From a virus, in the IMG/VR virus record IMGVR_UViG_3300008107_004627, positions 1 through 23,765 of that record: a stretch of 23,765 bases of DNA; one strand, given 5' to 3'. Under the pieces are notes generated by a model that made no database searches, was not told where the DNA came from, and saw only the letters and a list, made by a program, of their open reading frames with translations. A program made the position numbers and the translations under genes. The stretch's first letter is position 1, and every line of letters starts with the position of its first letter. This document shows positions 2,827 through 23,259 of this stretch, in pieces.

Positions 2827-3789
2827 CTATTTAGCCCTAATCTTAGTAGACACTAAATCAGTAGAACATACGCATTGATTACTAGTGCAGGGTATAAAAT
2901 CGTCCGTAAATCCAAAATTATCACTGAATATGCTAGTTGCACCGCTCACTTTGCATACCCCTCTATATGAGTTTGTGCCCTCTATTCGCATGAATTGTCT
3001 TCCAAAGTCACATAGCCAACCAGTATAGATGTTATGTCTATCTTTCAATATCTTTTGAGGATCCATTTTTAACTGTATACCGTTATCATACGTTACAGTC
3101 AAATTGTGTCTGATTTGATGTTCTTTGGGAACATTACTAGATTTCTTAGTCTTTCCCAGATTTGATATGACAGTGTTGACAGATTTTAAAGTTTTTAGTT
3201 GCTCAGGGGAATATTTTTCAAAAATATTATAGTGTTGTATCATTATTGCTTTGAAAATAACTATACATCCGGTGTTTTCTTTTATGTATTCTACTGCTTC
3301 AAATGCCAAATCAATTGACGTTTCCACATGTGTAACTAAGCATACAACATCTGTTGGTTCGTCATGAAATAGATTTATAACATCTGTTACATGCTTATAG
3401 TTAGTAGTTTGCTCACTATGATATGAAACATACAAATGATCCAATACTTTCTTTTGCTTTAGTTCTTCCCACCATCTAATAGTTCTAGAACCATTTGAGA
3501 TTAGACTAGTATATGCGTTCTTTGACTTTATGTACTCTAGTAGTTCAATTAACTCGGGAAACAAAGTAGGCTCTCCACCTGTAATTTGAATCCACAATGG
3601 GTCTGTGCCTGCGGCCTCTACTAATCTGTCTAAAATTTTCTTATATTCATCTAGTGATAGCCATCGTTGCGAACCATCTTTGAATTCGCTACCACAAAAG
3701 CTACAATCATTGTTGCATACATTATGTATAAGCCATTCAATTACTTTATAAGGTTGTGGCTCTGATTTTTCTACTTTAATTGGTATCAT
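2827..3789 (-). CDS. Radical SAM enzyme with cysteine-rich C-terminal domain
   Basis: About 320 aa from the ATG at 3789; a TTG three codons upstream is less likely. The [4Fe-4S]-SAM motif CxxxCxxC is CNNDCSFC (about residues 25-32), followed by the SAM-contacting ITGGEPT motif (about 69-75), so a functional radical SAM core is expected. The last 60 residues contain five Cys (WLCDF, RGVCK, PCTSNQCVC), resembling the auxiliary cluster-binding SPASM or twitch domains of the MoaA/PqqE/SkfB group. It overlaps the aminotransferase gene by 14 nt and sits 4 nt before the inner spanin gene. The substrate is unknown; gene order suggests modification of a sugar or peptide made with the neighbouring aminotransferase and epimerase. 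It lacks QueE-type hallmarks. Confidence 0.85.
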   Translation of the reverse strand: MIPIKVEKSEPQPYKVIEWLIHNVCNNDCSFCGSEFKDGSQRWLSLDEYKKILDRLVEAAGTDPLWIQITGGEPTLFPELIELLEYIKSKNAYTSLISNGSRTIRWWEELKQKKVLDHLYVSYHSEQTTNYKHVTDVINLFHDEPTDVVCLVTHVETSIDLAFEAVEYIKENTGCIVIFKAIMIQHYNIFEKYSPEQLKTLKSVNTVISNLGKTKKSSNVPKEHQIRHNLTVTYDNGIQLKMDPQKILKDRHNIYTGWLCDFGRQFMRIEGTNSYRGVCKVSGATSIFSDNFGFTDDFIPCTSNQCVCSTDLVSTKIRAK

Positions 3790-4837
3790 AGAATTCAATG
3801 ACCTTCTCTGCTATATAGTCCACTTCTAGGTCAGTAAGCTCAGGATACATAGGGAGACTTATTACTCCTCGACTTAACATCACACTAGTAGACAATAAGT
3901 CCGGTTTTTGTAGGTTCTTTGCTGTGGGTAGATCGCCCAAGACATACTCATAATGAACTTTACTGTCAATACCATCAGTCAATAAATGAGTATGCATTGA
4001 ATTTCTATCGGCCATGTACATCACAAATTTTTGATGAGCATGAGGATCTACTGTATCTGACAAACAATTTATAGGCAAATCCTTAAATTTATCACACCAA
4101 TATTTTGCTATATTACTTCTACGTTTTTGCCACTCATCTATATAATTTGCTCTAACTAATATTTGGGCACAATCTTGTTCACTCATTTTACTATTAGTAC
4201 CAGCATCGTAAAAATAAGGCTTGTTATTATCTCTATAACTTGACGCATATAGATATAATTTTTCATCATTGGTAACAATAGCACCACCGTTACCTGAGCT
4301 AGGTAAATTCTTTGTAGGATCAAAACTGATTGACATTCCTCCACCTACATCACCGTCACATACTAGCCAATGTTGTGCTCCATCAACTATTACTCCATAT
4401 GCATTTGAATAACTAGCATTAGACCATGGCTTACGACCTGCAAAGCCCATCAAGCAATCATATACGCCGGCACTGTTGCCAATGTTAATGATACCATTCT
4501 TATCAGTATCAGCTAATTCAATATCCCAGCCGGCTGTAAGAAAGGCATTTAGTGTTGCCGGGTAGGTTAAGTTAGGAATACGAATTATAGGATTACCCTC
4601 CATAGTATTACTATGTTTAATCTTTTTCCAACGGGCAATAATCTCTAATGCTTGTGTACCACTATGTAAGGTTATAGCATATTTTGTTTTAGTACGGTGT
4701 TTAAGCCATTCTTCAAATGACCGTGTATAATGACCACCAACTAACTGTCCGTCTTTAAGAGCACGGTCTGTGGCATCTAGTAATTCATCTCTTAAATTAC
4801 TGTACTGTCTTTTTAGACCGAAGTGAGGGATTTGCAT
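3776..4837 (-). CDS. DegT/DnrJ/EryC1/StrS-family PLP aminotransferase
   Basis: 353 aa, close to the usual size of nucleotide-sugar aminotransferases. Family landmarks are visible: the N-terminal GxxVGGxYTxxFE-like segment (about 30-43), HSGTQAL for phosphate binding (58-64), the cofactor-contacting VDGAQ (151-155), and SFDPTKNL with the PLP Schiff-base lysine at about K176, followed by GNGGAIVT. These enzymes transfer an amino group, usually from glutamate, to a keto-sugar nucleotide. The adjacent NAD-dependent epimerase/dehydratase would supply the sugar substrate. The gene overlaps the 70-aa gene by 41 nt and the radical SAM gene by 14 nt, so all are probably made together. Fold and chemistry are well supported; the actual sugar is not known. 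Confidence 0.9.
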   Translation of the reverse strand: MQIPHFGLKRQYSNLRDELLDATDRALKDGQLVGGHYTRSFEEWLKHRTKTKYAITLHSGTQALEIIARWKKIKHSNTMEGNPIIRIPNLTYPATLNAFLTAGWDIELADTDKNGIINIGNSAGVYDCLMGFAGRKPWSNASYSNAYGVIVDGAQHWLVCDGDVGGGMSISFDPTKNLPSSGNGGAIVTNDEKLYLYASSYRDNNKPYFYDAGTNSKMSEQDCAQILVRANYIDEWQKRRSNIAKYWCDKFKDLPINCLSDTVDPHAHQKFVMYMADRNSMHTHLLTDGIDSKVHYEYVLGDLPTAKNLQKPDLLSTSVMLSRGVISLPMYPELTDLEVDYIAEKVIEFYDTN

Positions 4838-5009
4838 TTTTTGTCCATTCTATATAGCCGCCGTTAGTAACAGACCACGGACAATATTGTTCCCATAACG
4901 CATTTGATTGTTCCGTATTTTCTTTCATCAACTTGTCTATATTGACTCTGGATTTATATCCATCTAAAGTCCAATCGTGCACCTTCAATGCAGTTTCTAA
5001 TGCATTCAT
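4797..5009 (-). CDS. 70-aa conserved-looking phage protein of unknown function
   Basis: Small soluble protein lying between the epimerase and aminotransferase genes. The start ATG overlaps the epimerase stop (ATGA), and its 3' end overlaps the aminotransferase start by 41 nt in another frame, which argues that it is a real coupled gene. It contains an aromatic block, LWEQYCPWSVTNGGYIEW (about residues 38-55), and a basic C-terminus. There are no known catalytic motifs. It could be a small partner of the flanking sugar enzymes, or an unrelated small phage gene. Confidence 0.65.
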   Translation of the reverse strand: MNALETALKVHDWTLDGYKSRVNIDKLMKENTEQSNALWEQYCPWSVTNGGYIEWTKNANPSLRSKKTVQ

Positions 5010-5974
5010 TTTACTTTATCCTGCCAGTAACTTGATGTGCTAAGCCAATCATAATATTTTTGAAATCCTTCTTCTACATCTACTTTAGGATCGTATCCAA
5101 AATCTCTACGTGCCGCATCGATATTCAATGCACCACGACTTGGGAAATCAACATCTTTATCTTTAACTACTAATGTCCCACCGCCAGCTAATTTTAATGA
5201 AAGTTGTGCGGCTTCTAACAATGTACGACTGTGACTCTTAGTAATATTATATGTCTTGTTTTCTGTGTTATCACTTAATGAGGCAGCAACAATACCATCA
5301 GCTGCATCTTCAACATACGTAAAGTCTAATGTTTCATTTGCACCATTAACATTTAATGTTCCACCACGCATAGCTGTTAACATAAACTTAGCAATAACTC
5401 TATCTTCAACATCTAATTCACCATACACAGCACTAGGACGAATGATAGTATGACTAAAGCATTTACGGCGGCTATAATCTTCAACCAATCGTTCTCCGGC
5501 TAATTTCATAATACCATATTGACCTTGTGGTTTACAGTTATAATCTTCTGTTACATCATCTGTGAAATCACCATATACCATTGAACTACTGATATAAACA
5601 AACTTCTTTATTTTATGTTTCTTGCTTACTTCACACAAATTCAATAGACCTTCCATCATTGTTTTTGCTCCCATAGTTGGGTTAGCATTAACAACTTTTT
5701 GTCGTGGGAAGCTAGCCATATGAATTACAATATCAAACTTGTATCTATCAAATAACCAATCAATGCTTTCACTAGAAATGTCAATGGCATGAATACTGCC
5801 GGGTTGAATTTTCTTCAACCGTTCTGTCATTAGATAGTCAATTTCATCTTGTGGGATGATACCATAGTTAGTTCGTATATCGGTAATAGCAACACGGTGC
5901 CCCATACGTTGTAATCTATCTACTACGTTATGTCCTATAAGTCCTAATCCACCTGTAACTAGTATACTACTCAT
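5006..5974 (-). CDS. NAD-dependent sugar epimerase/dehydratase (extended SDR)
   Basis: 322 aa, typical of the extended short-chain dehydrogenase family (GalE/RmlB-like). The Rossmann dinucleotide motif GGLGLIG lies at residues 8-14, an acidic residue at the end of beta-2 (TD) favours NAD, the active-site Ser is in ISSSMVYGD (128-136), and the catalytic YxxxK is Y153-K157 (YGIMK). The RPSAVYG and FTYVEDAADG segments typical of NDP-sugar binding follow. It should oxidise, epimerise or dehydrate a nucleotide sugar. It overlaps the upstream small gene by 8 nt and the 70-aa gene by 4 nt. With the aminotransferase, radical SAM enzyme, glycosyltransferase and sulfotransferase of this window it points to phage-encoded glycan synthesis or remodelling. 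Confidence 0.9.
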   Translation of the reverse strand: MSSILVTGGLGLIGHNVVDRLQRMGHRVAITDIRTNYGIIPQDEIDYLMTERLKKIQPGSIHAIDISSESIDWLFDRYKFDIVIHMASFPRQKVVNANPTMGAKTMMEGLLNLCEVSKKHKIKKFVYISSSMVYGDFTDDVTEDYNCKPQGQYGIMKLAGERLVEDYSRRKCFSHTIIRPSAVYGELDVEDRVIAKFMLTAMRGGTLNVNGANETLDFTYVEDAADGIVAASLSDNTENKTYNITKSHSRTLLEAAQLSLKLAGGGTLVVKDKDVDFPSRGALNIDAARRDFGYDPKVDVEEGFQKYYDWLSTSSYWQDKVK

Positions 5975-9346: not shown

Positions 9347-9452
9347 GTTTTGAAAGTGTATCTAATGCTCCGGATAGTAGTCTAATAAAAATATACAAGA
9401 CTACTCCCAGTACTACTACTATAAAGCCATAGCCAAGTATATCTACTATCAT
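9336..9452 (-). CDS. 38-aa single-pass membrane protein
   Basis: Short gene placed exactly between the VWA protein and the 120-aa gene. Its ATG overlaps the VWA stop (ATGA at 9452-9449) and its TAA overlaps the next start by 11 nt. The product begins MIVDILGYGFIVVVLGVVLY, continues IFIRLLSGALD and ends with a polar tail (TLSKHDD). A hydrophobic stretch of about 20 residues followed by one Arg fits a small inner-membrane protein. Perfect coupling on both sides is the main reason to call it. It could anchor a neighbouring protein such as the VWA factor to the membrane, but that is inference. Confidence 0.65.
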   Translation of the reverse strand: MIVDILGYGFIVVVLGVVLYIFIRLLSGALDTLSKHDD

Positions 9453-10735
9453 GCTGTTACCGGCTCATCATAAATTGCATAAGTGCCGAATGGGGGATTG
9501 GGATTCTTATCACCGTGAATGATCCATGTAGTATCACAATAGTCAGCATCACCCCAGCTACCAAAAGGATAACCATCAGTAAATACAATTAATCGTTTTG
9601 GATCAATTGCATTATCTTTCAAATATTTAAAGATACAATCAAAGTCAGTACCACCACCGCCCATTGGCTCATATTCTTCAATCAAATCCATATTCTCACT
9701 ACTGAAGTCTTTTGGATTATAAGTTTCAGTATCAAAACAGAATACGTGGACCTTGTAGCCATCAAAACTATTCATCATGCCACCAATTTCACCTAAGAAT
9801 TGTTGTGCTTGTTTGTTACTGATAGAACCTGACATGTCAATGGCAACAACAACATCAATTTCTTCACCGGGATTCATGCCGGGCATAATAGCATCCATAT
9901 GCCAACCTCTACGTGAAGGACGCATCCAAGAATAATCTGTACGAATAGCACTTGTCAAATTAGTTTGAATCAGTTCACGCCAGGGCATAACTGGGTTAGT
10001 ATGTTGTTTAATCAAACGCTCAACACCTAAGGGCAATGAACCTGCTTCAGCACTACTTGCGGCATTGATAATTGCTTGCTTAACTTCCTGACGCACACGT
10101 TCACGTTCTTCAGGACTCATTGAGGGACGCTTACCTTGTTTGTTACCTTCACCTTCTTGATCACCGTCACCATCACCTTCATCATCCATGTGGTCGTCAA
10201 TCATTTGGTCAAGTAAATCATCAATAGAGATTTTCTGAACATTCTTCATCAAATCATCATATATTTCTTCTGCGGCTTTACCATCATACTTCTGCTCATA
10301 CAAGCAAGGTACTGTCTTAATAAACTCACCTACTTTATGACGTTTCAAATCAGCGTTGACAGCATAGTCATCAGCAATGTTCCAGATTTCGGGATCACGA
10401 TTACCTCTACGACCCATATGATCGTACACAACGTGTAACACTTCATGCCCAACTAAGAATTCAACTTCTTTGGGTTTCAACATCATAATGAAACGACTAT
10501 TGTAATAGAACTTCAAGCCATCAGTTGCCGCTGTACTACACCATAAATCAGCATTAATCAATTGCATACGTGTAGCAAGATTGCCGAAAAAGCTATGACG
10601 CAACAATAGACCAATACGTGCAGTAACTAATTTTTCACGTGCTTGATAGTCAATTTTGCTATCTGTAGGTCCTACAAGATTCTCAAATTTCTTACTACGA
10701 CTACGTTTCTTACTGGGATTAATTACTTCACTCAT
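9449..10735 (-). CDS. DUF2201-type putative metallopeptidase with C-terminal VWA domain
   Basis: 428 aa. The N-terminal domain (about 30-160) carries a zinc-site-like HExxH, HEVLHVVYDH (H97, E98, H101), and an NIADDYAVNADL segment. A very acidic linker follows (about 180-200, DDEGDGDGDQEGEG). The C-terminal VWA domain has a complete MIDAS metal site: DMSGS at 300-304, T363-D364 in GGGTDFD, and FTDGYPFG near 385-392. This architecture matches the DUF2201 family, usually encoded beside a MoxR AAA+ ATPase, as here at 10959. Such pairs act as remodelling or metal-insertion chaperones (CbbQ/CbbO, NorQ/NorD, RavA/ViaA). It has its own sigma70 promoter and an AAAGGA ribosome site. Its phage target is unknown. 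Confidence 0.88.
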   Translation of the reverse strand: MSEVINPSKKRSRSKKFENLVGPTDSKIDYQAREKLVTARIGLLLRHSFFGNLATRMQLINADLWCSTAATDGLKFYYNSRFIMMLKPKEVEFLVGHEVLHVVYDHMGRRGNRDPEIWNIADDYAVNADLKRHKVGEFIKTVPCLYEQKYDGKAAEEIYDDLMKNVQKISIDDLLDQMIDDHMDDEGDGDGDQEGEGNKQGKRPSMSPEERERVRQEVKQAIINAASSAEAGSLPLGVERLIKQHTNPVMPWRELIQTNLTSAIRTDYSWMRPSRRGWHMDAIMPGMNPGEEIDVVVAIDMSGSISNKQAQQFLGEIGGMMNSFDGYKVHVFCFDTETYNPKDFSSENMDLIEEYEPMGGGGTDFDCIFKYLKDNAIDPKRLIVFTDGYPFGSWGDADYCDTTWIIHGDKNPNPPFGTYAIYDEPVTA

Positions 10736-10761
10736 ATTGGTCCTTTGTTAGTTATGTATGT

Positions 10762-10790
10762 ATTGTAACACACTTGTGATTTACTGTCAA
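10762..10790 (-). promoter_or_regulatory. Sigma70 promoter of the VWA gene
   Basis: TTGACA, a 17-nt spacer, then TACAAT preceded by TGT (extended -10). It lies 27 nt before the ATG at 10735, immediately after the stop of the 54-aa gene. The -35 is extended as TTGACAGTAAATCA, nearly the same as in the two promoters at 12094-12122 and 12195-12223. Confidence 0.8.
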
Positions 10791-10792
10791 AA

Positions 10793-10957
10793 TTACATTG
10801 ATAGCTTGCGATAACCTTTATCAAAGTAAATCCTTGCGTAAGGATCCGCACCTTTAGTGTACAGTTCCTCGGCTTCACTTTTGTTCAATCCACGATCACG
10901 GGCACTTTGACCCATTGCGTAGAAATACTTCTTGCCAGTTAAAATCTTTGTTGCCAT
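10793..10957 (-). CDS. 54-aa protein between the AAA+ and VWA genes
   Basis: Small basic protein beginning MATKILTGKKYFYAMGQSAR and continuing with an acidic helix (LNKSEAEELYTKG) and DPYARIYFDKGYRKLSM. The ATG comes one base after the ATPase stop, with an AGGT ribosome-site match about 7 nt upstream, so it is translated from the ATPase message. Its stop abuts the promoter of the VWA gene. It has no known motif. Its position inside the ATPase/VWA pair makes an adaptor or substrate-linking role worth considering, as inference only. Confidence 0.62.
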   Translation of the reverse strand: MATKILTGKKYFYAMGQSARDRGLNKSEAEELYTKGADPYARIYFDKGYRKLSM

Positions 10958-10958
10958 A

Positions 10959-12059
10959 TTAATTACCTGCGTCTACAATGTACTTGCCGTATTTCTTATG
11001 AAACTCATCAAAGTTCTTCAACTGACTAGGTTCAATCGGTAACTTGTATGTCTTAAGCGCAATCTTAGCACCCATAACAACTAGTTCAGTCTCAAAGTTT
11101 GCCATAATGTAACTGAAGAAATTATCAGCCATTGTGTGGAACTCTTTGCTAGAAACTTTCTTTGTCTCTAGTGCATCACGCAATTCATAACACATTGAAA
11201 TTGTCAATGAATACATAGCAGAAATTTCTTTAACTGCAAGGTCCTTAACTTTACCTGACAAGATATCAGAGGGTTCAGGCATACGACCTGCTACTTTACG
11301 ATGTGCCGCAAACTTAACAGCAAGACCTTCACCAACAGCACCACTAATCAAATTGAATAATGTATCACTATCTGTATCATCTTCATCATTCAACAAGTCA
11401 CTAACGAAACACCATGTACGAGGTGTAGCAAATGCTCTACTTGCTGATTTAGCATCAAAATCATACAAATCTTGTTTAGCGAAACTCAAGTAACCCACAA
11501 CGTCTTTGTGAATACCTTTGTTCACTGCCCAATTCTGCCATGAAGTAAAATCTGCTCTCATCTCTAAGTGTAAGAAACGATTAGCTAGGGGCATTGGCAT
11601 ACGATATGTAACACCTTTGTCAGAGTCACGATTGCCTGCCGCAACGATAACAACATTATTGGGAAGTACATACTTACCAACTCTACGATTCAAAATCAAC
11701 TGATAACCGGCCGCTTGTACTGCGGGACTTGCTGAATTCATTTCATCTAAGAATAGAACAACGATTGGGTACTGACTTGCTAGGTCCTCATCAGGCAAGT
11801 CAACAGGTGCCGCCCAATCCATTTTATTAATATCTTTATTAAAGAATGGGATACCACGAATGTCTGTAGGCTCCATTTGTGCCATACGCAAGTCAATCAT
11901 GTAGCCACCTAGTTCTTCAGTAACTTCTGCTACGACTTCTGATTTACCGATGCCGGGAGGGCCCCACAAGAAAAGCGGGCGTTTTGCTTTGAATGCTTTG
12001 AGCATTGCTTTGCGAGTTTGTACACTAGTGATAGTGAGATTGTCTGATACTGATGCCAT
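10959..12059 (-). CDS. MoxR-type AAA+ ATPase
   Basis: 366 aa. Walker A is GPPGIGKS (33-40), Walker B is LFLDEMN (about 102-108), followed by the VQAAGYQLILNRRVG region, a sensor-1 Asn in VVIVAAGNRD and an arginine-finger region in PMPLANRFLHLEM. The layout fits the MoxR branch, whose members work with VWA-domain partners; the partner is encoded at 9449-10735. The start has a good ribosome site (AGGAG, 7-nt spacing). Two tandem near-consensus sigma70 promoters lie upstream. The ATPase call is firm. What it remodels is unknown; candidates are virion assembly intermediates or a host metalloprotein. Confidence 0.93.
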   Translation of the reverse strand: MASVSDNLTITSVQTRKAMLKAFKAKRPLFLWGPPGIGKSEVVAEVTEELGGYMIDLRMAQMEPTDIRGIPFFNKDINKMDWAAPVDLPDEDLASQYPIVVLFLDEMNSASPAVQAAGYQLILNRRVGKYVLPNNVVIVAAGNRDSDKGVTYRMPMPLANRFLHLEMRADFTSWQNWAVNKGIHKDVVGYLSFAKQDLYDFDAKSASRAFATPRTWCFVSDLLNDEDDTDSDTLFNLISGAVGEGLAVKFAAHRKVAGRMPEPSDILSGKVKDLAVKEISAMYSLTISMCYELRDALETKKVSSKEFHTMADNFFSYIMANFETELVVMGAKIALKTYKLPIEPSQLKNFDEFHKKYGKYIVDAGN

Positions 12060-12194: not shown

Positions 12195-12223
12195 ATTATA
12201 ACACCAAAATGATTTATTGTCAA
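12195..12223 (-). promoter_or_regulatory. Sigma70 promoter upstream of the ATPase gene (distal)
   Basis: TTGACA, a 17-nt spacer, TATAAT: full consensus hexamers with extended -10 TGT. It reads leftward and would give the ATPase message a leader of about 130 nt containing the proximal promoter. It lies back-to-back with the start of the plus-strand glycosyltransferase gene and overlaps any upstream promoter of that gene. No credible ORF lies between the two promoters. Confidence 0.8.
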
Positions 12224-12249
12224 CTTATCATACCTTACTAAATATTTCA

Positions 12250-13611
12250 ATGACAAAATTACACGTTTTAGTGGTCTTACAGACCCATAGTAAGGGTGAT
12301 AATCAACATTATTTTGGGTATACCACTGAGGAGAGATTTTGTAGAGCACCTAAAGGTGAGATTACTAGAAGGTGTACTAGGAGTCTAGTGGAAAGTATGA
12401 ACCATGCTAAAGAATTATTTGTAGATAGTGATTTTGAATTGGTAGTATATGATGACCATAGTGATGACCAAGCAGTTATTGATATTAAGAATAACCTTAA
12501 TATTGCTAGTTTTAAAACACAATTTATTCCTTTAGTTACCTATGGAATTATGTCAAGTATTTTAAAATGCTATGAGCATGGTAGAGATCATGGTAAGGAA
12601 ATTGTATATTTTGCACAAGATGATTACTTATATGATACTACTGCTATTTTCGACATGATACAAACAATGATGCACACCTCATATGCATTAGGTAATTTTA
12701 CCTCTATATATCCATATGATGATCCATATCGGTATATTCCTCAAAATACTGCAATACCTAGTCATGTAATTCGTTCACAAAAAAGACATTGGAGATCATC
12801 AAAGGGGTGTGCTAGTTGTATTATGGTCCATCATAAAATGCTAACTGACAATTGGGATTTATTTGAGGGAATGGGTAGACATGTTCCTGATCCTAGAATG
12901 GAAGATCGTACACTTAACAGATTATGGAATGAACGAAATTACTATTTGTTTACACCAATACCTAGTTTAGCGTTACACATGCAATATATGTCTGAACATG
13001 ATAATCAGATGAATTGGCGTGAATGGTGGGATAGATATGATAAAGCAGAATCGTTAAGTCCAACAACTGATGATACCATATTAAATGTAGGGTTTGGTGG
13101 TCATTTTATAAAAAACATGTCATATATAGATGAATTTGCAGGTATGCGTGAGATAACATTAGATATTGACAATAAGCATAATCCTGATATCATTGCAGAT
13201 GTGAATAATCTTAGCCATATACCTGATAATTATGTAAATTGCGTCTATACTTCGCATATGATTGAGCATATTGATTACTTTAAGGTTTCACCTGTTCTTA
13301 AAGAATTACTTCGTATATGTAAACTCGGTGGTATTGTTAGAATTGTAACTCCTAATTTACAAGTAATAGGAGAACATATTAGTAAAGGAGATTTATTGAC
13401 TCCGATATATGATAGTAATGGTGGACCAATTAGTCCTATAGATATTATATATGGACATCGTCATAGTGTTCATCGCAATCGTGTTGATTTTATGATTCAT
13501 AGAACTGGATTTACTAAACAGGTATTTGAACATATAGCGACAGAAAATAATTTTGATATTGATATTAAAGAAATAGATTTTGATTTAATAGTAGATATTA
13601 AAAAACATTAA
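12250..13611 (+). CDS. Glycosyltransferase-methyltransferase fusion protein
   Basis: 453 aa from the ATG at 12250; a TTG at 12217 would add 11 residues but overlaps the opposing promoter. The N-terminal half resembles a GT-A glycosyltransferase: a beta strand (KLHVLVVLQTH), then VVYDDHSDD (about 65-73) and YFAQDDYLY (about 120-128), candidates for nucleotide-sugar and metal-binding acidic motifs. The C-terminal 185 residues look like a class I SAM methyltransferase of the Methyltransf_11 type: LNVGFGGHF (motif I), TLDID, DIIADVNNL and YTSHMIEHI. It is the only plus-strand gene and converges on the 84-aa gene with a 1-nt gap. No Shine-Dalgarno precedes the ATG; TAAATA ends 5 nt before it. Likely role: build and cap a glycan. 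The acceptor is unknown. Confidence 0.82.
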   Translation: MTKLHVLVVLQTHSKGDNQHYFGYTTEERFCRAPKGEITRRCTRSLVESMNHAKELFVDSDFELVVYDDHSDDQAVIDIKNNLNIASFKTQFIPLVTYGIMSSILKCYEHGRDHGKEIVYFAQDDYLYDTTAIFDMIQTMMHTSYALGNFTSIYPYDDPYRYIPQNTAIPSHVIRSQKRHWRSSKGCASCIMVHHKMLTDNWDLFEGMGRHVPDPRMEDRTLNRLWNERNYYLFTPIPSLALHMQYMSEHDNQMNWREWWDRYDKAESLSPTTDDTILNVGFGGHFIKNMSYIDEFAGMREITLDIDNKHNPDIIADVNNLSHIPDNYVNCVYTSHMIEHIDYFKVSPVLKELLRICKLGGIVRIVTPNLQVIGEHISKGDLLTPIYDSNGGPISPIDIIYGHRHSVHRNRVDFMIHRTGFTKQVFEHIATENNFDIDIKEIDFDLIVDIKKH

Positions 13612-13947: not shown

Positions 13948-16302
13948 TTATGTCAACGAATACCCTGCGGCTGCCAAGGCACTTCTTGCAGTACCTACAC
14001 CTGTAGTATCTGTAGCAACTACACCCGTATTTGACACTAAGTTGGTCATTGATAAACGAGTAACCCCTGAAACTCCATATCCAAATATAGCTTTATCAGC
14101 GCCATATGTTGAGGCTGCAAGAGTACTTCTAGCAGTTCCTACACCAGTGGTGTTGGTAGCAACTACACCGGTGTTTGAAACTAGGTTTGTAACCGCAGTA
14201 TTAGGATTACCACCATATCCAAATATAGCCTTATCACCACCATAACCTGCTGCCGCAAGATATCCTCTAATAGTACCTACACCTGTTGTGTCACCTGAAA
14301 CTACACCTGTGTTTGATATTAGGTTGGTTACTGCTGTGTAATTACTGGTAGAAGTAATGAAGCCATAACCAAATAGAGCTTTATCTGTCCCGTAGGCTGC
14401 GGCTGCTAGGGCCATTCTTACAGTACCAACTCCTGCAGTATTAGTAGCAACTACACCGGTATTACTTACTAAATTGGTTACTGAAGTGCTACTAGAAGTA
14501 AATCCATATCCAAATATAGCTTTATCTGTTCCATATGTTGCGGCCGCTAACAAACCTCTTGATGTACCGGCTCCAGTAGAATTGTTAGCAACTACACCTG
14601 TATTTGATACTAGGTTAGTTGTATTAACCGGACCACTACCTTGTGTGTCAGTAAACCCATACGCAAATATAGCTTTATCTGTTCCGTATCCTGCTGCCGC
14701 TAATTCCATTCTAGCAGTACCTACACCTGTAGTATCTGCGGCGACTACACCTGTATCACTTACTAAGTTGGTCATACTTAATACCGATGCATTTCTACCA
14801 TATCCAAATATAGCTTTTCTAGGTGTGACTAAAGGTGTATCAGTGATGATACTATTACTTGCCTCACTTGCGCTACCTGTACCTACACTGTTAGTGGCAG
14901 TTACAGTAAATGTATAAGTAGTGGCTCCTGTTAATCCGGTAACTGTAATAGTACCACTACCTGCTTGACTTAGTGTACCGGTAATCCCTCCAGGACTACT
15001 TGTTGCTGTATAAGTTGTGATTGTAGCACCGCCATCACTTGCTGGTGCAGTAAATGCTACAGTTGCGGTTGTTTCACCTGTTGCCGTAGCAGAACCAATA
15101 GTTGGAGCTCCTGGTACTACAGCTACTACATTAGCCGTAGCATTAGAATTAGCAGATGAATTACCATAACTATTAGTGCCAGTTACTACACAACGAATAG
15201 GATTACCAATGTCGGCTGCAACTAATGTATAAGTGCTTGCTGTTGCAGACCCTATGTCAATACCATTTCGTTGCCATTGATATGTAAATGTTATTGTTGC
15301 TGTTCCAGTCCATGTACCATCAGTAGTTGACAATGTTGAACCAAAACTTGCTGTTCCACTAACAACAGGTGCTACTGTATTAGCTGGTATTGTAAATGTC
15401 GTTATGCTATTACTTGCCGCACTTGCATTACCTGTACCAATACTATTAGTAGCAGTTACTGTAAATGTATAGCTGGTACCGGATGTTAGTCCAGTCATAT
15501 TAATAGTACCACTGCCCGATTGATTTAGTGTGCCAGTTATATTATCCGGACTACTTGTTGCCGTATAACTTGTAATTGTGGCTCCGCCATCACTAGCAGG
15601 TGCTGTAAATGCTACTGTAGCAGTTGTTAAACCAGTTGCTGTTGCTGTGCCAATTGTTGGTGCACTCGGAGCGATAGCAGATACATTAGAAGTAGCATTA
15701 GAATTAGCAGATGCATTACCGTAACTGTTAGTACCAGTTACTACGCATCTAATTGGATTACCCACATCGGCTGCTACTAGTGTATATGTACTATTTGTAG
15801 CTGATGATATATTAGATCCATTTCGTTGCCATTGATATGTAAATGTTATTGTAGCTGTGCCAGTCCAAGTACCATCAGTAGTTGACAATGTTGAACCAAA
15901 ACTCGCAGTTCCACTAACAACTGGTGCTACTGTGTTAACCGGCGGAGTTGTTGCTGAGGGTGTAGTAATGCTATTACTTGATGTACTTGGACTACTTGTT
16001 CCAATACTATTAGTTGCAGTTACTGTAAATGTATAACTTGTATTTTGTGTTAATCCGGATATTGTAATTGTTCCAGATCCAGCTTGGTTTACTGTACCGG
16101 TTAAGTTGCCAGGACTACTTGTTGCTGTATAACTTGTGATTGTGGCACCGCCATTATTGACTGGAGCAGTAAATGTTACAGTTGCTGTAGTTGCACTTGT
16201 AGCCGTTGCAGTACCAATTGTTGGTGCACCTGGTGCTATTGGAGGTAATGTTAGTGTAAATCCACCTGAAAGTGTTACACCTGAAATTGCCATGTCGGCC
16301 AT
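13948..16302 (-). CDS. Modular tail-fibre/adhesin with FN3 and Ig-like domains and six-repeat propeller-like head
   Basis: 784 aa. A short N-terminal segment (MADMAISGVTLSGGFT), shared with the 418-aa paralog, probably attaches to the virion. FN3-type domains lie at about 23-115, 211-305 and 401-495, alternating with Ig-like domains at about 120-208 and 306-398 (TYQWQRNG, IRCVVTGTNSYGN). Residues 496-784 are six repeats of 46-51 aa (KAIFGYG, a variable stretch of 7-12 residues, TNLVSNTGVV, TTGVGTAR, LAAAxYGTD). Repeat length and number suggest a six-bladed beta-propeller, as in kelch or RCC1-like folds, with the variable stretches as exposed loops. The late motif lies 20 nt before the ATG, with an AAAGGA ribosome site. 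Likely a receptor-binding or surface-decorating fibre; the propeller is inferred. Confidence 0.8.
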   Translation of the reverse strand: MADMAISGVTLSGGFTLTLPPIAPGAPTIGTATATSATTATVTFTAPVNNGGATITSYTATSSPGNLTGTVNQAGSGTITISGLTQNTSYTFTVTATNSIGTSSPSTSSNSITTPSATTPPVNTVAPVVSGTASFGSTLSTTDGTWTGTATITFTYQWQRNGSNISSATNSTYTLVAADVGNPIRCVVTGTNSYGNASANSNATSNVSAIAPSAPTIGTATATGLTTATVAFTAPASDGGATITSYTATSSPDNITGTLNQSGSGTINMTGLTSGTSYTFTVTATNSIGTGNASAASNSITTFTIPANTVAPVVSGTASFGSTLSTTDGTWTGTATITFTYQWQRNGIDIGSATASTYTLVAADIGNPIRCVVTGTNSYGNSSANSNATANVVAVVPGAPTIGSATATGETTATVAFTAPASDGGATITTYTATSSPGGITGTLSQAGSGTITVTGLTGATTYTFTVTATNSVGTGSASEASNSIITDTPLVTPRKAIFGYGRNASVLSMTNLVSDTGVVAADTTGVGTARMELAAAGYGTDKAIFAYGFTDTQGSGPVNTTNLVSNTGVVANNSTGAGTSRGLLAAATYGTDKAIFGYGFTSSSTSVTNLVSNTGVVATNTAGVGTVRMALAAAAYGTDKALFGYGFITSTSNYTAVTNLISNTGVVSGDTTGVGTIRGYLAAAGYGGDKAIFGYGGNPNTAVTNLVSNTGVVATNTTGVGTARSTLAASTYGADKAIFGYGVSGVTRLSMTNLVSNTGVVATDTTGVGTARSALAAAGYSLT

Positions 16303-16397: not shown

Positions 16398-17213
16398 TTA
16401 CATTTTATAAGGAGATTTTGTAGAAAAATCAACTTCCGGATTTCGCCAAAATTCTTTACCACCATATTTTTCCCAAACAGATTTAGGTAAAATACTAGGT
16501 CTTTCTTGCCAAGTTACCTCTTTACGTACCGAATGTAAACTTTTCATATTTAACGAATTATCATATACTTCATTCTCATACTTTACATTTTTAAAATCAT
16601 GGTTGTAATAGGTTTTACTAATAAATTCATATATCTCACGCATGACACTTTCTGGTTTTTTACATAAAGATTCGTATTCTACTAACATAATCATATCGGG
16701 ATTTAATAATAAACCTTCTTCTAAGAAGTAATAGGGTTTAACAATTTGACCCTCTTTTCTTACATCCATAAGTGCATCACACCGTGTAGTAACTGTTTGT
16801 CCCGCTTCATCATCAGTTAATTTTGCATTGTATAAACTATTTTTTGCAGAGATACGTTCAAATGAATCTAATATCCAAGGCAAATCCCGTACACAGCAAA
16901 TAATTTTAGTTTTCGGGTACAATTCTTTTAATAAAGATGTTTTAGCTGTCCAACCTCTAGAGGTATCAAACACGGTGGGAGGTGTAACATTTTCATAGTA
17001 AGAATTGAACAATGAACGTAATAGTTGTTTTCTTCTATCCTCATCAATTAAATGATTATTTTCGCTACCAGTAATCACATTGATAGTTGACATAACTAAA
17101 TTTTGTACAGGTGAAGATATATCTGCATAAAATTCAGGATTTTGTCGTAAAATTGCCGATAACAGTGTTGATCCAGATCTGGGTAATCCGGATATAAATA
17201 AAAATTCTTTCAT
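16398..17213 (-). CDS. PAPS-dependent sulfotransferase family protein
   Basis: 271 aa from the ATG at 17213; a TTG at 17237 inside the upstream gene is less likely. The N-terminus MKEFLFISGLPRSGSTLLS carries the 5'-phosphosulfate-binding loop (PRSGST, residues 11-16) at the end of beta-1. A later IICCVRDLPWILDSFERIS segment fits the 3'-phosphate-binding helix with its Arg and Ser. These enzymes move sulfate from PAPS to hydroxyls on sugars, lipids or proteins. The gene follows the 142-aa accessory gene by 2 nt and lies between two fibre genes, so its acceptor may be a glycan on the fibres or on the host surface. The family is reasonably clear; the acceptor is inference. Confidence 0.82.
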   Translation of the reverse strand: MKEFLFISGLPRSGSTLLSAILRQNPEFYADISSPVQNLVMSTINVITGSENNHLIDEDRRKQLLRSLFNSYYENVTPPTVFDTSRGWTAKTSLLKELYPKTKIICCVRDLPWILDSFERISAKNSLYNAKLTDDEAGQTVTTRCDALMDVRKEGQIVKPYYFLEEGLLLNPDMIMLVEYESLCKKPESVMREIYEFISKTYYNHDFKNVKYENEVYDNSLNMKSLHSVRKEVTWQERPSILPKSVWEKYGGKEFWRNPEVDFSTKSPYKM

Positions 17214-17215
17214 CT

Positions 17216-17644
17216 TTAATTTTCGAGTGGTTTCCAATTAACTGTTGTTTCATCCCACTGATAACGGACATTACCGCCGTTAATCATTGCATCAGCTGGT
17301 CTTGGAAAAGGAGGGTACCACTCATGTATTGATTCATTCCATACCCAAGATGCAAATGGTTTACGAGCAAGAATTTCTGCTTCCTTGCGTTCTACAAAAT
17401 CTTGTTCAGTAAGTACTTCTAATACACCCGCAATAGTTATGTCAGCATCGTCATCACATGTACCGTAATATTTTGGTGCACGAAGATATTTACCAGTTGT
17501 ATGAATTTCAATAGGCCAAGTAGATATATCGGCCCATAGTATAGTTAACCCTTTAACATCGGGCATAGATGGACCTGTACGTTGTGGTTCAACGGTACAA
17601 GGAATTTTTGTATCGTAATCAACTTCTGTAACACTTATATACAT
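17216..17644 (-). CDS. Unknown fibre-region protein with Trp-rich C-terminal motif
   Basis: 142 aa, strong ribosome site (AAGGAG, 5-nt spacing). The C-terminal third carries spaced aromatics: SWVWNESIHEWYPPFPRPAD then VRYQWDETTVNWKPLEN. This SW-x-W, W-x-PP-x-P, Y-x-W-x-E-x-x-x-x-W pattern is common at the ends of small tail-fibre-region proteins of T4-like phages of aquatic bacteria. The N-terminal part has no known motif. It is followed 2 nt later by the sulfotransferase gene. Probably a virion or fibre-associated protein; the exact role is unknown. Confidence 0.65.
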   Translation of the reverse strand: MYISVTEVDYDTKIPCTVEPQRTGPSMPDVKGLTILWADISTWPIEIHTTGKYLRAPKYYGTCDDDADITIAGVLEVLTEQDFVERKEAEILARKPFASWVWNESIHEWYPPFPRPADAMINGGNVRYQWDETTVNWKPLEN

Positions 17645-19978: not shown

Positions 19979-21235
19979 TTATGTACCGTAACTTGCGGCG
20001 GCCAGACGATATCTAGCAGTACCAACACCGGTTGTATCTGTAGCTACTACACCTGTATTTGATACTAGGTTGGTTATTGAAGTTAATCCAGAATTTTGTT
20101 CACCATAACCAAATATAGCCTTATCAGTATTATAACCTGCGGCCGCAAGTCCCTGTCTAGCACTACCAACACCGGTAGTATCAGTAGCTACCACACCAGT
20201 GTTTGATACTTTGTTAGTTATTGCGGTATTACTAACTCCAGCAATAAATCCATAACCAAATATAGCTTTATCAGTTCCATAACTTGCGGCTGCTAGTGTA
20301 TATCTAGCAGTACCAACACCGGTTGTATTTGTAGCTACTACACCAGTGTTTGATACTAAATTGGTTAATGAATAGGTGGTTTCTATGTAATTAGGAGGAC
20401 CTGAATTTGTAACTCCATATCCAAATATAGCTTGGCCAGAACTACCATAACCTGAGGCTGCTAGCAATCCTCTATTAGCGCCCACACCAGTAGTATCATT
20501 AGCAACTACACCTGTATTAGAAACAAGATTGGTTATTGATAAATAAGCTCCGGTATCCGCGACTTGTCCATATCCAAATATAGCTTTATCAGTGCCATAG
20601 CCTGCGGCTGCTAATGCTTGTCTAGCAGTACCAACACCGGTAACATCATTACCGACAACACCGGTATTACTTACTAGGTTAGTAATTGATACACCTCCGC
20701 TAGCAGTTCCATATCCAAATATAGCCTTATCACCTCCATAACCAGCGGCTGCTAAATCACGTCTGCCAGTGCCAACACCAGTAGTATTATTAGCAACTAC
20801 ACCTGTATCTGATACAAGGTTAGTTATTGATGTGGATGCTCCTCCAGGATTTCCAAATCCAAATATAGCTTTTTTAACCGGTATTACTGAAGGAGTAGTA
20901 ATGCTATTACTTGAAGCACTTGGACTACTTGTACCTGCACCATTAGTAGCTGTAACTGTAAATGTATAACTTGTACTTCCACTTAGTCCGGATACAGTAA
21001 TAGTACCACTTCCGGCTTGATTTAATGTACCGGTAACTCCGCCTGGATTACTTGTCGCTGTATAACTTGTGATTGTAGCACCGCCATCATTTGCCGGAGC
21101 AGTAAATGTTACTGTTGCAGTTGTTGCACTTGTAGCTGTTGCTGTACCAATTGTCGGTGCACCTGGTGCTGTTGGTGGAAGTGTCATTGTAAATCCACCT
21201 GAAAGTGTTACACCTGAAATAGTCATATCTGCCAT
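19979..21235 (-). CDS. Short propeller-type fibre/adhesin with one FN3 domain
   Basis: 418 aa, paralog of the 784-aa protein. The N-terminal segment MADMTISGVTLSGGFTMTL is almost identical to that of the larger protein. One FN3 domain (about 22-115) follows, then six repeats of 47-55 aa (residues 122-418): KAIFGYG, a variable stretch of 8-16 residues, TNLVSNTGVV, TTGVGTAR, LAAAxYGTD. It lacks the two Ig-like and two extra FN3 domains of the larger paralog. The C-terminus ends at the last repeat. The late motif lies 20 nt upstream with an AAAGGA ribosome site. Likely an alternative or additional receptor-binding or decoration fibre. Its stop lies 62 nt before the coiled-coil gene start. Confidence 0.8.
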   Translation of the reverse strand: MADMTISGVTLSGGFTMTLPPTAPGAPTIGTATATSATTATVTFTAPANDGGATITSYTATSNPGGVTGTLNQAGSGTITVSGLSGSTSYTFTVTATNGAGTSSPSASSNSITTPSVIPVKKAIFGFGNPGGASTSITNLVSDTGVVANNTTGVGTGRRDLAAAGYGGDKAIFGYGTASGGVSITNLVSNTGVVGNDVTGVGTARQALAAAGYGTDKAIFGYGQVADTGAYLSITNLVSNTGVVANDTTGVGANRGLLAASGYGSSGQAIFGYGVTNSGPPNYIETTYSLTNLVSNTGVVATNTTGVGTARYTLAAASYGTDKAIFGYGFIAGVSNTAITNKVSNTGVVATDTTGVGSARQGLAAAGYNTDKAIFGYGEQNSGLTSITNLVSNTGVVATDTTGVGTARYRLAAASYGT

Positions 21236-21297
21236 AATCTGTTGTCCTTTATGTTATTTATCACTATATATATTAATATTACCATGAAAAAAGGCTC
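21234..21297. repeat. Direct repeat copy 2: start codon, late promoter and terminator arm
   Basis: 64 nt matching 16301-16362 with a single TA insertion. It holds the start, ribosome site, late promoter and left terminator arm of the 418-aa fibre gene. Confidence 0.85.
21255..21263 (-). promoter_or_regulatory. T4-like late promoter motif TGATAAATA
   Basis: 20 nt before the ATG at 21235, inside the direct repeat shared with 16301-16362. Confidence 0.6.
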
Positions 21298-21311
21298 AAA
21301 AGAGCCTTTTT
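21287..21311 (-). terminator. Terminator after the porin gene
   Basis: Stem AAAAAGGCTC/GAGCCTTTTT with loop AAAA, T-runs on both strands, 18 nt after the porin stop and upstream of the late promoter of the 418-aa gene. Confidence 0.83.
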
Positions 21312-21329
21312 ATTCAATCTCAATGGAGA

Positions 21330-22211
21330 TTAGAAGCGATGTGTTACACCAACTCCAACTTGTTTTACGTCATTTGATGTACCTGTAGCATCAACATTAC
21401 GATAGTTGACACCCATAAGAGTACGCTTACTGAAGTGATAATCAGCACCCATTGCATAAGCTTTTACATCAGTATTTGTTTTACCATAGCTTGCTTTAGC
21501 AGTTACTCTACCGAATTGTTGGCTTGCACCAAACAAATCACCGGTATGTGCGGCTACACCGTTATTATCACTATGTGAGTAAAATACTTGTGTATTTCCT
21601 AATTTTGCACTACCAGCATATACTGTGCTTTTCTCAATACCTTGAGTATATTGTGCAACTGTTGCGTTAATGCCAAACAATTTTGCACTTGCACTATAAC
21701 TAGATGCTTCTGTACCTACACCATTTTGTGTGCGGTCATACGTTGCAGTTACACCTTTGATTGGTGTTAATGCAAAGAATGTACCATTGCTGATACGTAG
21801 ACCGCGCAAGTTGTGTACGTCACCGGCTACACTACCATACAATGTGCCAAAAGCGTCATTGTTAGTAATTGCCAAGAAGTGACTGTGTAGATTGCGACCT
21901 AAATCGATGCTACCCATCTTGTTTGATAAACCAATTGTTGATTGACGATCACCAAGTTTAGTATCTGCACCAGTAATAGGATCATTGGCTTTTAAACTTG
22001 TATCTAGTACTATACGAGCCTTCATGCCACCAATGTTTTCATTTACTGAAATTGTGATGTTACTTGTTGGGTCAGTAGCTAGAGTCGTTTTGCTAATAGC
22101 ACCAGTTTTAGTATTGTCAACGAATTCGCTGATTTTACCATTTAAATTAACTTGTGCTGTAGCAACCATAGTTGTTGCTGCCAATAATGTCGCTATTGCG
22201 ATTTTCTTCAT
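21330..22211 (-). CDS. Outer-membrane porin, Gram-negative (betaproteobacterial) type
   Basis: 293 aa. A clear Sec signal peptide (MKKIAIATLLAATTMVATAQ, cleavage after ATA or nearby) is followed by VNLNGKISEF, the first strand typical of betaproteobacterial porins. The body alternates hydrophobic and polar residues in beta-strand fashion (MKARIVLDTSL, IDLGRNLHSHFLAI, VTATYDRTQNG, AMGADYHFSKRT) and ends VGVGVTHRF, a C-terminal Phe beta-signal read by the BAM complex. Typical Burkholderiales porins are 330-390 aa, so this one is trimmed, probably in loops, but both ends are intact. Ribosome site AAAGGAAAC; terminators on both sides isolate it as a single-gene unit. It would put a phage-made channel in the host outer membrane; purpose unknown. 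Confidence 0.87.
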   Translation of the reverse strand: MKKIAIATLLAATTMVATAQVNLNGKISEFVDNTKTGAISKTTLATDPTSNITISVNENIGGMKARIVLDTSLKANDPITGADTKLGDRQSTIGLSNKMGSIDLGRNLHSHFLAITNNDAFGTLYGSVAGDVHNLRGLRISNGTFFALTPIKGVTATYDRTQNGVGTEASSYSASAKLFGINATVAQYTQGIEKSTVYAGSAKLGNTQVFYSHSDNNGVAAHTGDLFGASQQFGRVTAKASYGKTNTDVKAYAMGADYHFSKRTLMGVNYRNVDATGTSNDVKQVGVGVTHRF

Positions 22212-22233
22212 AAGAGTTTCCTTTAAAAATAAA

Positions 22234-22247
22234 CCTGATTTCTCAGG
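22234..22247 (-). other. Stem-loop in the porin leader
   Basis: CCTGA/TCAGG stem with a GAAA (GNRA) tetraloop on the minus strand, about 22 nt before the porin ATG and just upstream of its ribosome site. It could stabilise the message or tune initiation. A weak TAAATA at 22257-22262 is the only late-promoter candidate; no good sigma70 promoter was found. Confidence 0.4.
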
Positions 22248-22321
22248 CTAGACTAATATTTAGATTGATTTTTACTACCCATATAATTTAGTTGTTTACG
22301 CAATAACATATGCTTCATGGC

Positions 22322-22346
22322 AAAAAAGGCACCAAAGTGCCTCTTT
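22322..22346 (-). terminator. Terminator after the DUF4214 gene
   Basis: On the minus strand AGGCAC-TTTG-GTGCCT followed by TTTTTT, 14 nt after the stop at 22360. It separates the DUF4214 unit from the porin unit. Confidence 0.8.
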
Positions 22347-22359
22347 ATAGTAGTATAGA

Positions 22360-23259
22360 TTACGCTACAAATGGAGTGTACTCAATACCAGTTGTTGCTA
22401 GTCCAACTAAACCTATAGTTGTTTCAAATGCAGCCAACTCACTTGCGGCTACTAAAACATCTGCTTGACTTAGATTACTAGTAGTCATCCAAGCTGTGTA
22501 TTCAGTAACTTGTGCCAATGTAGCATCAGTACCAAATACGTTTTTGTAAACGTGCTTGATAAATGTTTCATTGCTAACACCACCGGCGTCAGTTTTGTAA
22601 GTATCAGTAGCAAGCAAGGCTGTTGCTAATTCTTTGTTAGTCCAACCTGCATCTGCAAGATGAATACCAATGCCTTTATATGCGTTAGTAACATCGGCTG
22701 TGCCAAGTGCGGCTGCTAGTAATGCATATACATCACCTGCACGACCTGCGGCATCATACGCAATAGCTTTATCTGTGAATACAACACGTTCATGGTCGGC
22801 AAGATTAAATTCCATGTTACTAACTAATGTGCTGTCTAATTCAATTTTACCAGCAGTCTTGGTAATTGTATATTCAGTACTAGCACCACCCATTGTGTAA
22901 CTGTCAACTCCGATTGTGCCAGTTACATCAACCGTAACATCTACTGTGCCGTCTCCGATACGACCTGTACCCACTACACCAAATGTAGCAATCTTACCTG
23001 CTGTACCAACTGTAGCTACTGTAACGATTAAGTTGTTAGTACTTGTGCCACCTAGTGCTGTACCAGCTAAAGTGATTGTATCACCTGCTAAATAGCCTGT
23101 ACCTGCACTGGCTGCTAATGAATCTAATACAACGGAATAAACTCCGTTAGTTTTTGTAACATCAAATGCGGCACCATCACCTGAACCACCTGTCAATCCT
23201 GTGACATTTTGATATGTAGTGTTTACTGCTTTATCTTTGATTGTAATTGTTGTTGTCAT
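22360..23259 (-). CDS. Phage-structural repeat/DUF4214 chimeric protein
   Basis: 299 aa without a signal peptide. The N-terminal part (about 20-95) has the GGSGDGAAFDVTKTNGVYSV ... GYLAGDTITLAGTALGG pattern seen in virion structural proteins of T4-like phages. A beta-rich middle follows. The C-terminal 110 residues (LLAAALGTADVTNAYKGIGI ... TFIKHVYKNVFGTDATLAQV ... WMTTSNLSQADVLVAAS) match the DUF4214 pattern, a helical domain usually found in type I-secreted or S-layer/RTX-like surface proteins. It has its own sigma70 promoter, an AAGGAA ribosome site, an upstream CRP-type palindrome and a downstream terminator. The combination suggests a virion or cell-surface protein; activity unknown. Confidence 0.75.
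   Translation of the reverse strand: MTTTITIKDKAVNTTYQNVTGLTGGSGDGAAFDVTKTNGVYSVVLDSLAASAGTGYLAGDTITLAGTALGGTSTNNLIVTVATVGTAGKIATFGVVGTGRIGDGTVDVTVDVTGTIGVDSYTMGGASTEYTITKTAGKIELDSTLVSNMEFNLADHERVVFTDKAIAYDAAGRAGDVYALLAAALGTADVTNAYKGIGIHLADAGWTNKELATALLATDTYKTDAGGVSNETFIKHVYKNVFGTDATLAQVTEYTAWMTTSNLSQADVLVAASELAAFETTIGLVGLATTGIEYTPFVA

Follow-up and report, generated by a model that had tools for sequence, protein, structure and literature searches.

The window, meaning the whole stretch of DNA analysed, is an entire IMG/VR record of 23,765 bp. Its minus strand harbors a porin gene (positions 21330 to 22211, stop codon included) with an ATG start codon and an intact reading frame of 293 amino acids. 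Residues 1 to 20 constitute the signal peptide MKKIAIATLLAATTMVATAQ, as read from the sequence, and the C-terminal residue is a phenylalanine, F293, which is invariant across 75 aligned phage rows. The protein is a member of the Pfam family Porin_4 (PF13609; residues 7 to 292, E=7.4e-19, 69.1 bits against a cut-off of 27), and a PHROG search with it gave no match. On the same strand, the porin gene is preceded by a gene for a DUF4214 repeat protein of 299 amino acids (22360 to 23259), homologues of which are encoded in many related loci, and followed by a gene for an fn3 fibre-like protein recognized by Pfam (19979 to 21235). Both flanks of the porin are fibre- or adhesin-like phage genes, in agreement with a preliminary description of this DNA that had reported a complete porin with signal peptide and C-terminal Phe among phage fibre genes. 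The contig stops about 500 bases beyond the DUF4214 gene. A gene pair for a MoxR-like ATPase and a DUF2201/VWA protein at 9449 to 12059 (minus strand) marks the position of a conserved porin slot in relatives.

Several other genes of the window are of interest in their own right. The fn3 proteins encoded at 13948 to 16302 and at 19979 to 21235 (both minus strand) contain repeats of the type KAIFGYG...NLVSNTGVVA; both genes are preceded by the near-identical leader GATAAATAACATAAAGGACAACAG, and in relatives these proteins form a multi-copy fibre family. A sulfotransferase gene (PF13469, phrog_27463; 16398 to 17237, minus strand) is located among the fibre genes. At 2827 to 5974 (minus strand), a gene for a radical SAM protein identified with Pfam stands in a row with genes that by eye are aminotransferase-like and epimerase-like, which suggests that the phage encodes enzymes for sugar or surface modification. 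Only one long gene is clear on the plus strand (12217 to 13611); its product has 464 amino acids, with a methyltransferase domain in the C-terminal portion.

The porin gene looks like a transcription unit of its own, because terminator hairpins are found before and after it, as had been proposed. Downstream, a hairpin with a U-tract resembling an intrinsic terminator is located at about 21287 to 21312 (minus strand, -14.4 kcal/mol, z -3.3), and a similar hairpin is present 3' of the porin in most relatives inspected. Upstream, the DUF4214 gene ends in an intrinsic terminator with a U-tract at about 22320 to 22345 (minus strand, -13.1 kcal/mol, z -3.1). The hexamer TAAATA, which is the core of T4-type late promoters, occurs at 22257 to 22262 (minus strand), 51 bases ahead of the porin start codon. 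The short hairpin AGCCTGAGAAATCAGGTT (22232 to 22249, minus strand) is located close to where the mRNA is expected to begin; it is weak alone (z -1.1) and is kept in close relatives. The arrangement of TAAATA followed by the run TAAATATTA.TCTA and a hairpin is conserved among close relatives and also in several distant relatives. The downstream fn3 gene has its own TAAATA 25 bases ahead of its start. Across eleven loci, the hexamer is enriched 13-fold at 8 to 60 bases upstream of genes (63 of 171 sites), with a P of ~1e-51 that overstates independence because some of these loci are related. Eight of the 17 minus-strand copies in the window are less than 100 bases from a gene start, fibre genes included (P 3e-4). 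Other members of the porin family have, by eye, sigma70-like boxes in place of TAAATA. The promoter motif suggests that the porin may be made late in infection, although the MCP genes of L038 and L039 contain no TAAATA within 150 bases.

The late-promoter-like motif and the fibre-gene surroundings would also fit a protein that aids release at lysis as a barrel or belongs to the virion. Such a role is highly improbable, given the typical Sec signal peptide, the C-terminal Phe for BAM, a separate spanin-like gene at 2364 to 2822 of the window, and a porin sequence in which no structural domain was found.

IMG/VR was scanned with words taken from several regions of the protein, and 15, 36, at least 80, and at least 80 loci were recovered. 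After removal of duplicates, at least 77 distinct full-length sequences remained, including that of the window and with nearly all on other IMG/VR phage contigs; they comprise 285 to 312 amino acids and are 36 to 96% identical to the window protein. Porin-bearing contigs reach 349, 352, 400, and 524 kb, and a family-profile search of 14 records found one porin copy per record. Matches to T4 gp23 of at least 207 bits were obtained on eight records (L006, L011, L013, L073, L075, L114, L239, and L243). As the window is a whole record of 23,765 bp, its earlier placement in a large T4-like genome rests on these relatives, and they bear out the T4-like setting. Close relatives share around the porin the genes for DUF4214, fn3, a small protein of 84 to 110 amino acids, the MoxR-like ATPase, and the DUF2201/VWA protein; other family members adjoin other gene sets.

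No head gene was found in the window, a 24-kb fragment, and a bacterial porin might in principle have been assembled into it as contamination, as passive cargo, or through a chimeric contig. The chance of this is negligible, and the chimeric contig was rejected, because many independent contigs, several of them with T4 gp23, contain this gene in similar surroundings, its frames are intact with a dN/dS of 0.165, and no bacterial genome with a close copy was found among 85,000 species genomes scanned by pattern or about 770 genomes searched by profile.

The gene had initially been regarded as a host-type porin whose donor might be found by phylogeny, but it is not host-type in the sense of a gene recently taken from a host. 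When 85,000 species genomes were scanned by pattern for the most conserved words of the family, no relative was found, a result that excludes close kin only, as these words are family-specific. Profile searches in 369 and 399 genomes revealed ordinary porins and no near bacterial donor. With the family profile, bacterial porins reach at most 60 bits for a single aligned piece and 88 bits for the entire protein, and full-length phage members score 169 to 516 bits. Kin porins occur in the order searched around the genome G239, presumably Burkholderiales in view of its numerous porin copies, and a Hydrogenophaga plasmid porin used as genome query gave one weak match only. In the tree, which comprises 55 phage and 49 bacterial porins, a branch (SH-aLRT 94, stem 0.71) sets the phage sequences apart, while the porin of Pelagibacter phage HTVC008M is placed far outside the phage branch on a very long branch. 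The simplest reading, with moderate support and from a limited bacterial sample in both donor search and tree, is a single old capture of a porin by phages; recent capture from a host was rejected, there being no close bacterial porin and a single phage branch. The term moron, which had been applied to the gene, holds at the motif level for a unit with its own promoter and terminator between phage genes, but not for a recently acquired, sporadic insert: the 77 distinct members form a single phage-only branch, and the place beside the MoxR/VWA pair is kept in many relatives.

A structure model based on the 75 phage rows (pLDDT 89, pTM 0.81) has the form of a 16-strand barrel according to DSSP, with the hairpin at residues 39 to 46 counted with L1. 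In this model, the constriction loop L3 (residues 109 to 138, motif around NDAFGTLYGSVAGDVHNLRGL; codons at 21798 to 21887, minus strand) is present with its helix and is folded into the pore. The long extracellular loops L4 to L8, which are typical of Porin_4 but do not define it, are absent from the window porin; L4, L5, L6, L7, and L8 comprise about 7, 2, 4, 4, and 7 residues, respectively (DSSP on the model). A PDB search yielded 217 matches with E<=0.001, and the top matches listed are porins, led by Omp32 with bound malate (2fgq; TM 0.81, 19% identity) and followed by OmpU, Burkholderia Omp38, and PorB.

The earlier view that the phage protein is shorter than host porins and has lost loop sequence is borne out. 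Its median length in the phage family is 293 amino acids compared to 349 in the 51 most similar bacterial porins, a set chosen by similarity to the family profile and not a random sample, and all but one of these 51 exceed the longest phage protein in length. In the 32 bacterial porins in which the GR motif of strand 5 could be placed, the part before this motif has 108.5 amino acids versus 105 in the phage proteins, and the part after it has 243.5 versus 188. Thus, the approximately 55 residues lost were all lost after strand 5, where L4 to L8 are cut to 2 to 7 residues.

The porin is under purifying selection, with a median pairwise dN/dS of 0.165 (range 0.079 to 0.326) in 71 pairs that are not independent of each other. 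By region, dN/dS is 0.068 in L3, 0.161 in the strands, and 0.20 in the outer loops, L3 thus being the most constrained part; its conservation could be inflated by scans that used L3 words, but a scan with a C-terminal word free of these recovered the same family. The residues R89, R106, D119, R136, R139, K239, K262, and R263 are each kept in at least 93% of the sequences. The pore rather than the surface is therefore held tightest by selection.

A comparison of the window with L243 is informative about the slot itself. The MoxR proteins of the two are 98% identical, while their porins are only 50% identical. The promoter region and signal peptide of L243 are of the window-group type (90 to 95% in residues 1 to 20), whereas its barrel is of the L237-group type (69 to 83% by segment), and L243 and the window differ in L3 too. 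Porin distance and MoxR distance show moderate correlation only (r 0.63). As judged from these sequences, the slot is kept while its porin content is apparently exchanged, with pore and surface changing together, and recombination between phages would swap which porin occupies it.

Such exchange between close phages is expected in phage-phage or phage-host conflict, and together with the trimmed outer loops it would suit superinfection exclusion or receptor replacement, in which a loop-less porin displaces that of the host or competes for BAM, leaving related phages that rely on the loops of the host porin unable to adsorb. Porins are common phage receptors, and the lambdoid temperate phage PA-2 carries the porin gene lc. 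This main rival is possible, if doubtful, because selection is strictest in the pore loop L3 rather than on the surface, uptake genes are linked to the porin in several relatives (see below), and a late-promoter-like motif would act too late against early secondary infection.

In L006, L008, and L243, the porin is found just downstream of genes for a periplasmic solute-binding protein (SBP_bac_3), an SDF sodium:dicarboxylate symporter, a protein of 200 amino acids, and an Asp/Glu-type racemase; this module is located at 2942 to 6372 in L006, 1489 to 4860 in L008, and 530 to 3913 in L243. The same cluster, or the portion held by the respective contig, is present in L004, L005, L007, and L013, and since some of these records are near copies, about three cases are independent. 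In the 524,565-bp record L013, which may be a chimeric or duplicated assembly, the porin protein is identical to that of the 171-kb record L008, and the SBP-SDF pair occurs twice, the second time at 84926 to 86869. The racemase of L006 scores above the NCBIfam cut-off for the cysteate racemase CuyB, and the matches of the symporter to the DctA and GltP models are far below the cut-offs. The symporter reaches at most 38% identity in the order around G239, and among the matches listed from the phage collection identity is about 25% or less, these matches looking like bacterial DNA in phage records. The module possibly serves the uptake of acidic amino acids or sulfonates. An Asp/Glu-type racemase was not found in the window record, where the uptake genes are missing from the contig, and the SDF symporter is absent from 21 of the 27 related records searched; the module can therefore not be the whole purpose of the porin.

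That the porin is kept where uptake genes are absent, together with the conservation of L3, would be in line with general envelope maintenance: in the course of a long infection by a very large phage, the porin might compensate for envelope stress or for host porins that are lost, with no particular substrate. This is an unlikely explanation, as several relatives have an SBP, a symporter, and a racemase linked to the porin, which speaks for the uptake of specific solutes.

The evidence is best accommodated by a working outer-membrane diffusion channel that is added to the host late in infection, to which a probability of about 0.5 is assigned. A working channel fits better than a decoy because the pore is constrained, the best fold match is an anion porin, and the rest of an uptake route for dicarboxylate-like solutes is present in about three independent genomes; the earlier idea that the porin keeps nutrients entering the cell is sound as one option. 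In its favored form, this reading has the phage make, late in infection, a channel without receptor loops for the uptake of small anions. The signal peptide would direct the protein to Sec and then to BAM for insertion into the outer membrane, where it would form trimers and let through small anionic nutrients, either dicarboxylates or acidic amino acids, in support of phage production. The substrate is a guess from the fold and the neighbouring genes at 19% identity, and the anion reading is opposed by an Asn at the position aligned to R38 of Omp32 and by a median net charge of the mature protein of only +4. The lost loops would make the protein a poor target for receptor binding or bacteriocins, so that permeability could be raised or kept without giving rivals a handle; the stripped surface and the allele exchange fit this second benefit, poor recognition by rival phages. 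More tentatively, large aquatic T4-like phages might carry a whole uptake route consisting of a loop-stripped outer-membrane channel, a periplasmic binding protein, an inner-membrane dicarboxylate symporter, and a racemase, with pore types switched by allele swaps in a fixed slot and a stripped surface by which the infected cell would be hard for rival phages to target.

Phages are generally seen as altering the interior of the host. A widespread, phage-only branch of porins with the pore kept and the surface stripped suggests that the outer membrane, too, is remodelled by large phages during infection. It provides a testable case for the questions whether phages import nutrients to feed their own production and whether the removal of receptor loops serves to shut out rivals. 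For structural and channel work, it offers a porin with naturally minimal loops.

Among characterized proteins, the anion-selective Omp32 of Delftia (Comamonas) acidovorans (PDB 2fgq/1e54) has the same 16-strand fold with an in-folded L3 (TM 0.81), and the profile match to it spans residues 44 to 123, with YDLF of Omp32 aligning with NDAF. The basic eyelet residues of Omp32 are R38, R75, and R133; R75 aligns with the conserved R89 and R38 with Asn51, and R139 is a candidate for R133. In contrast to Omp32, which has a chain of 332 amino acids, the phage porin has about 273 in its mature form, its loops L4 to L8 are trimmed, and identity is limited to 19%. PorB of Neisseria (4aui, 3wi4) is the best sequence match among solved structures, covering the N-terminal 108 residues and the C-terminal strands, but its chain is longer and the window porin reaches 29.7 bits compared to an NCBIfam cut-off of 480 for NF040479.

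Phage porins as such are already on record. A literature search retrieved no description of the present branch, its trimmed loops, or a linkage with symporter genes, and porins are mentioned neither in the main text of a paper on large freshwater phages nor in an aquatic phage paper (PMC6802176). The OmpC-type entries A0A6J5L4P1 and A0A6J5LP82 (uncultured Caudovirales, BFVD/UniProt) likewise have a porin fold and come from environmental phages, but they are 15 to 17% identical and bear automatic names only. A porin in a T4-like genome, which had been thought unexpected, has a precedent in the cultured Pelagibacter phage HTVC008M (Kyanoviridae). Its porin AGE60376.1 is of similar length (285 amino acids), but it is 26% identical over 76% of L033 (E 0.01), belongs outside the branch, and has different neighbours. 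The corresponding locus L041 (HTVC008M 28040 to 28897) comes from a cultured T4-like pelagiphage and would be a convenient test system for phage porin function. The porin gene of phage PA-2, lc (NmpC), encodes an enterobacterial OmpC-like porin of normal length, unlike the trimmed window porin. Viral OmpL, encoded with glnK-amtB in viruses of oxygen-depleted marine waters and connected with ammonium uptake, with genes traced to Bacteroidetes (PMC8115048), is likewise a viral porin beside uptake genes, although it is a different porin.
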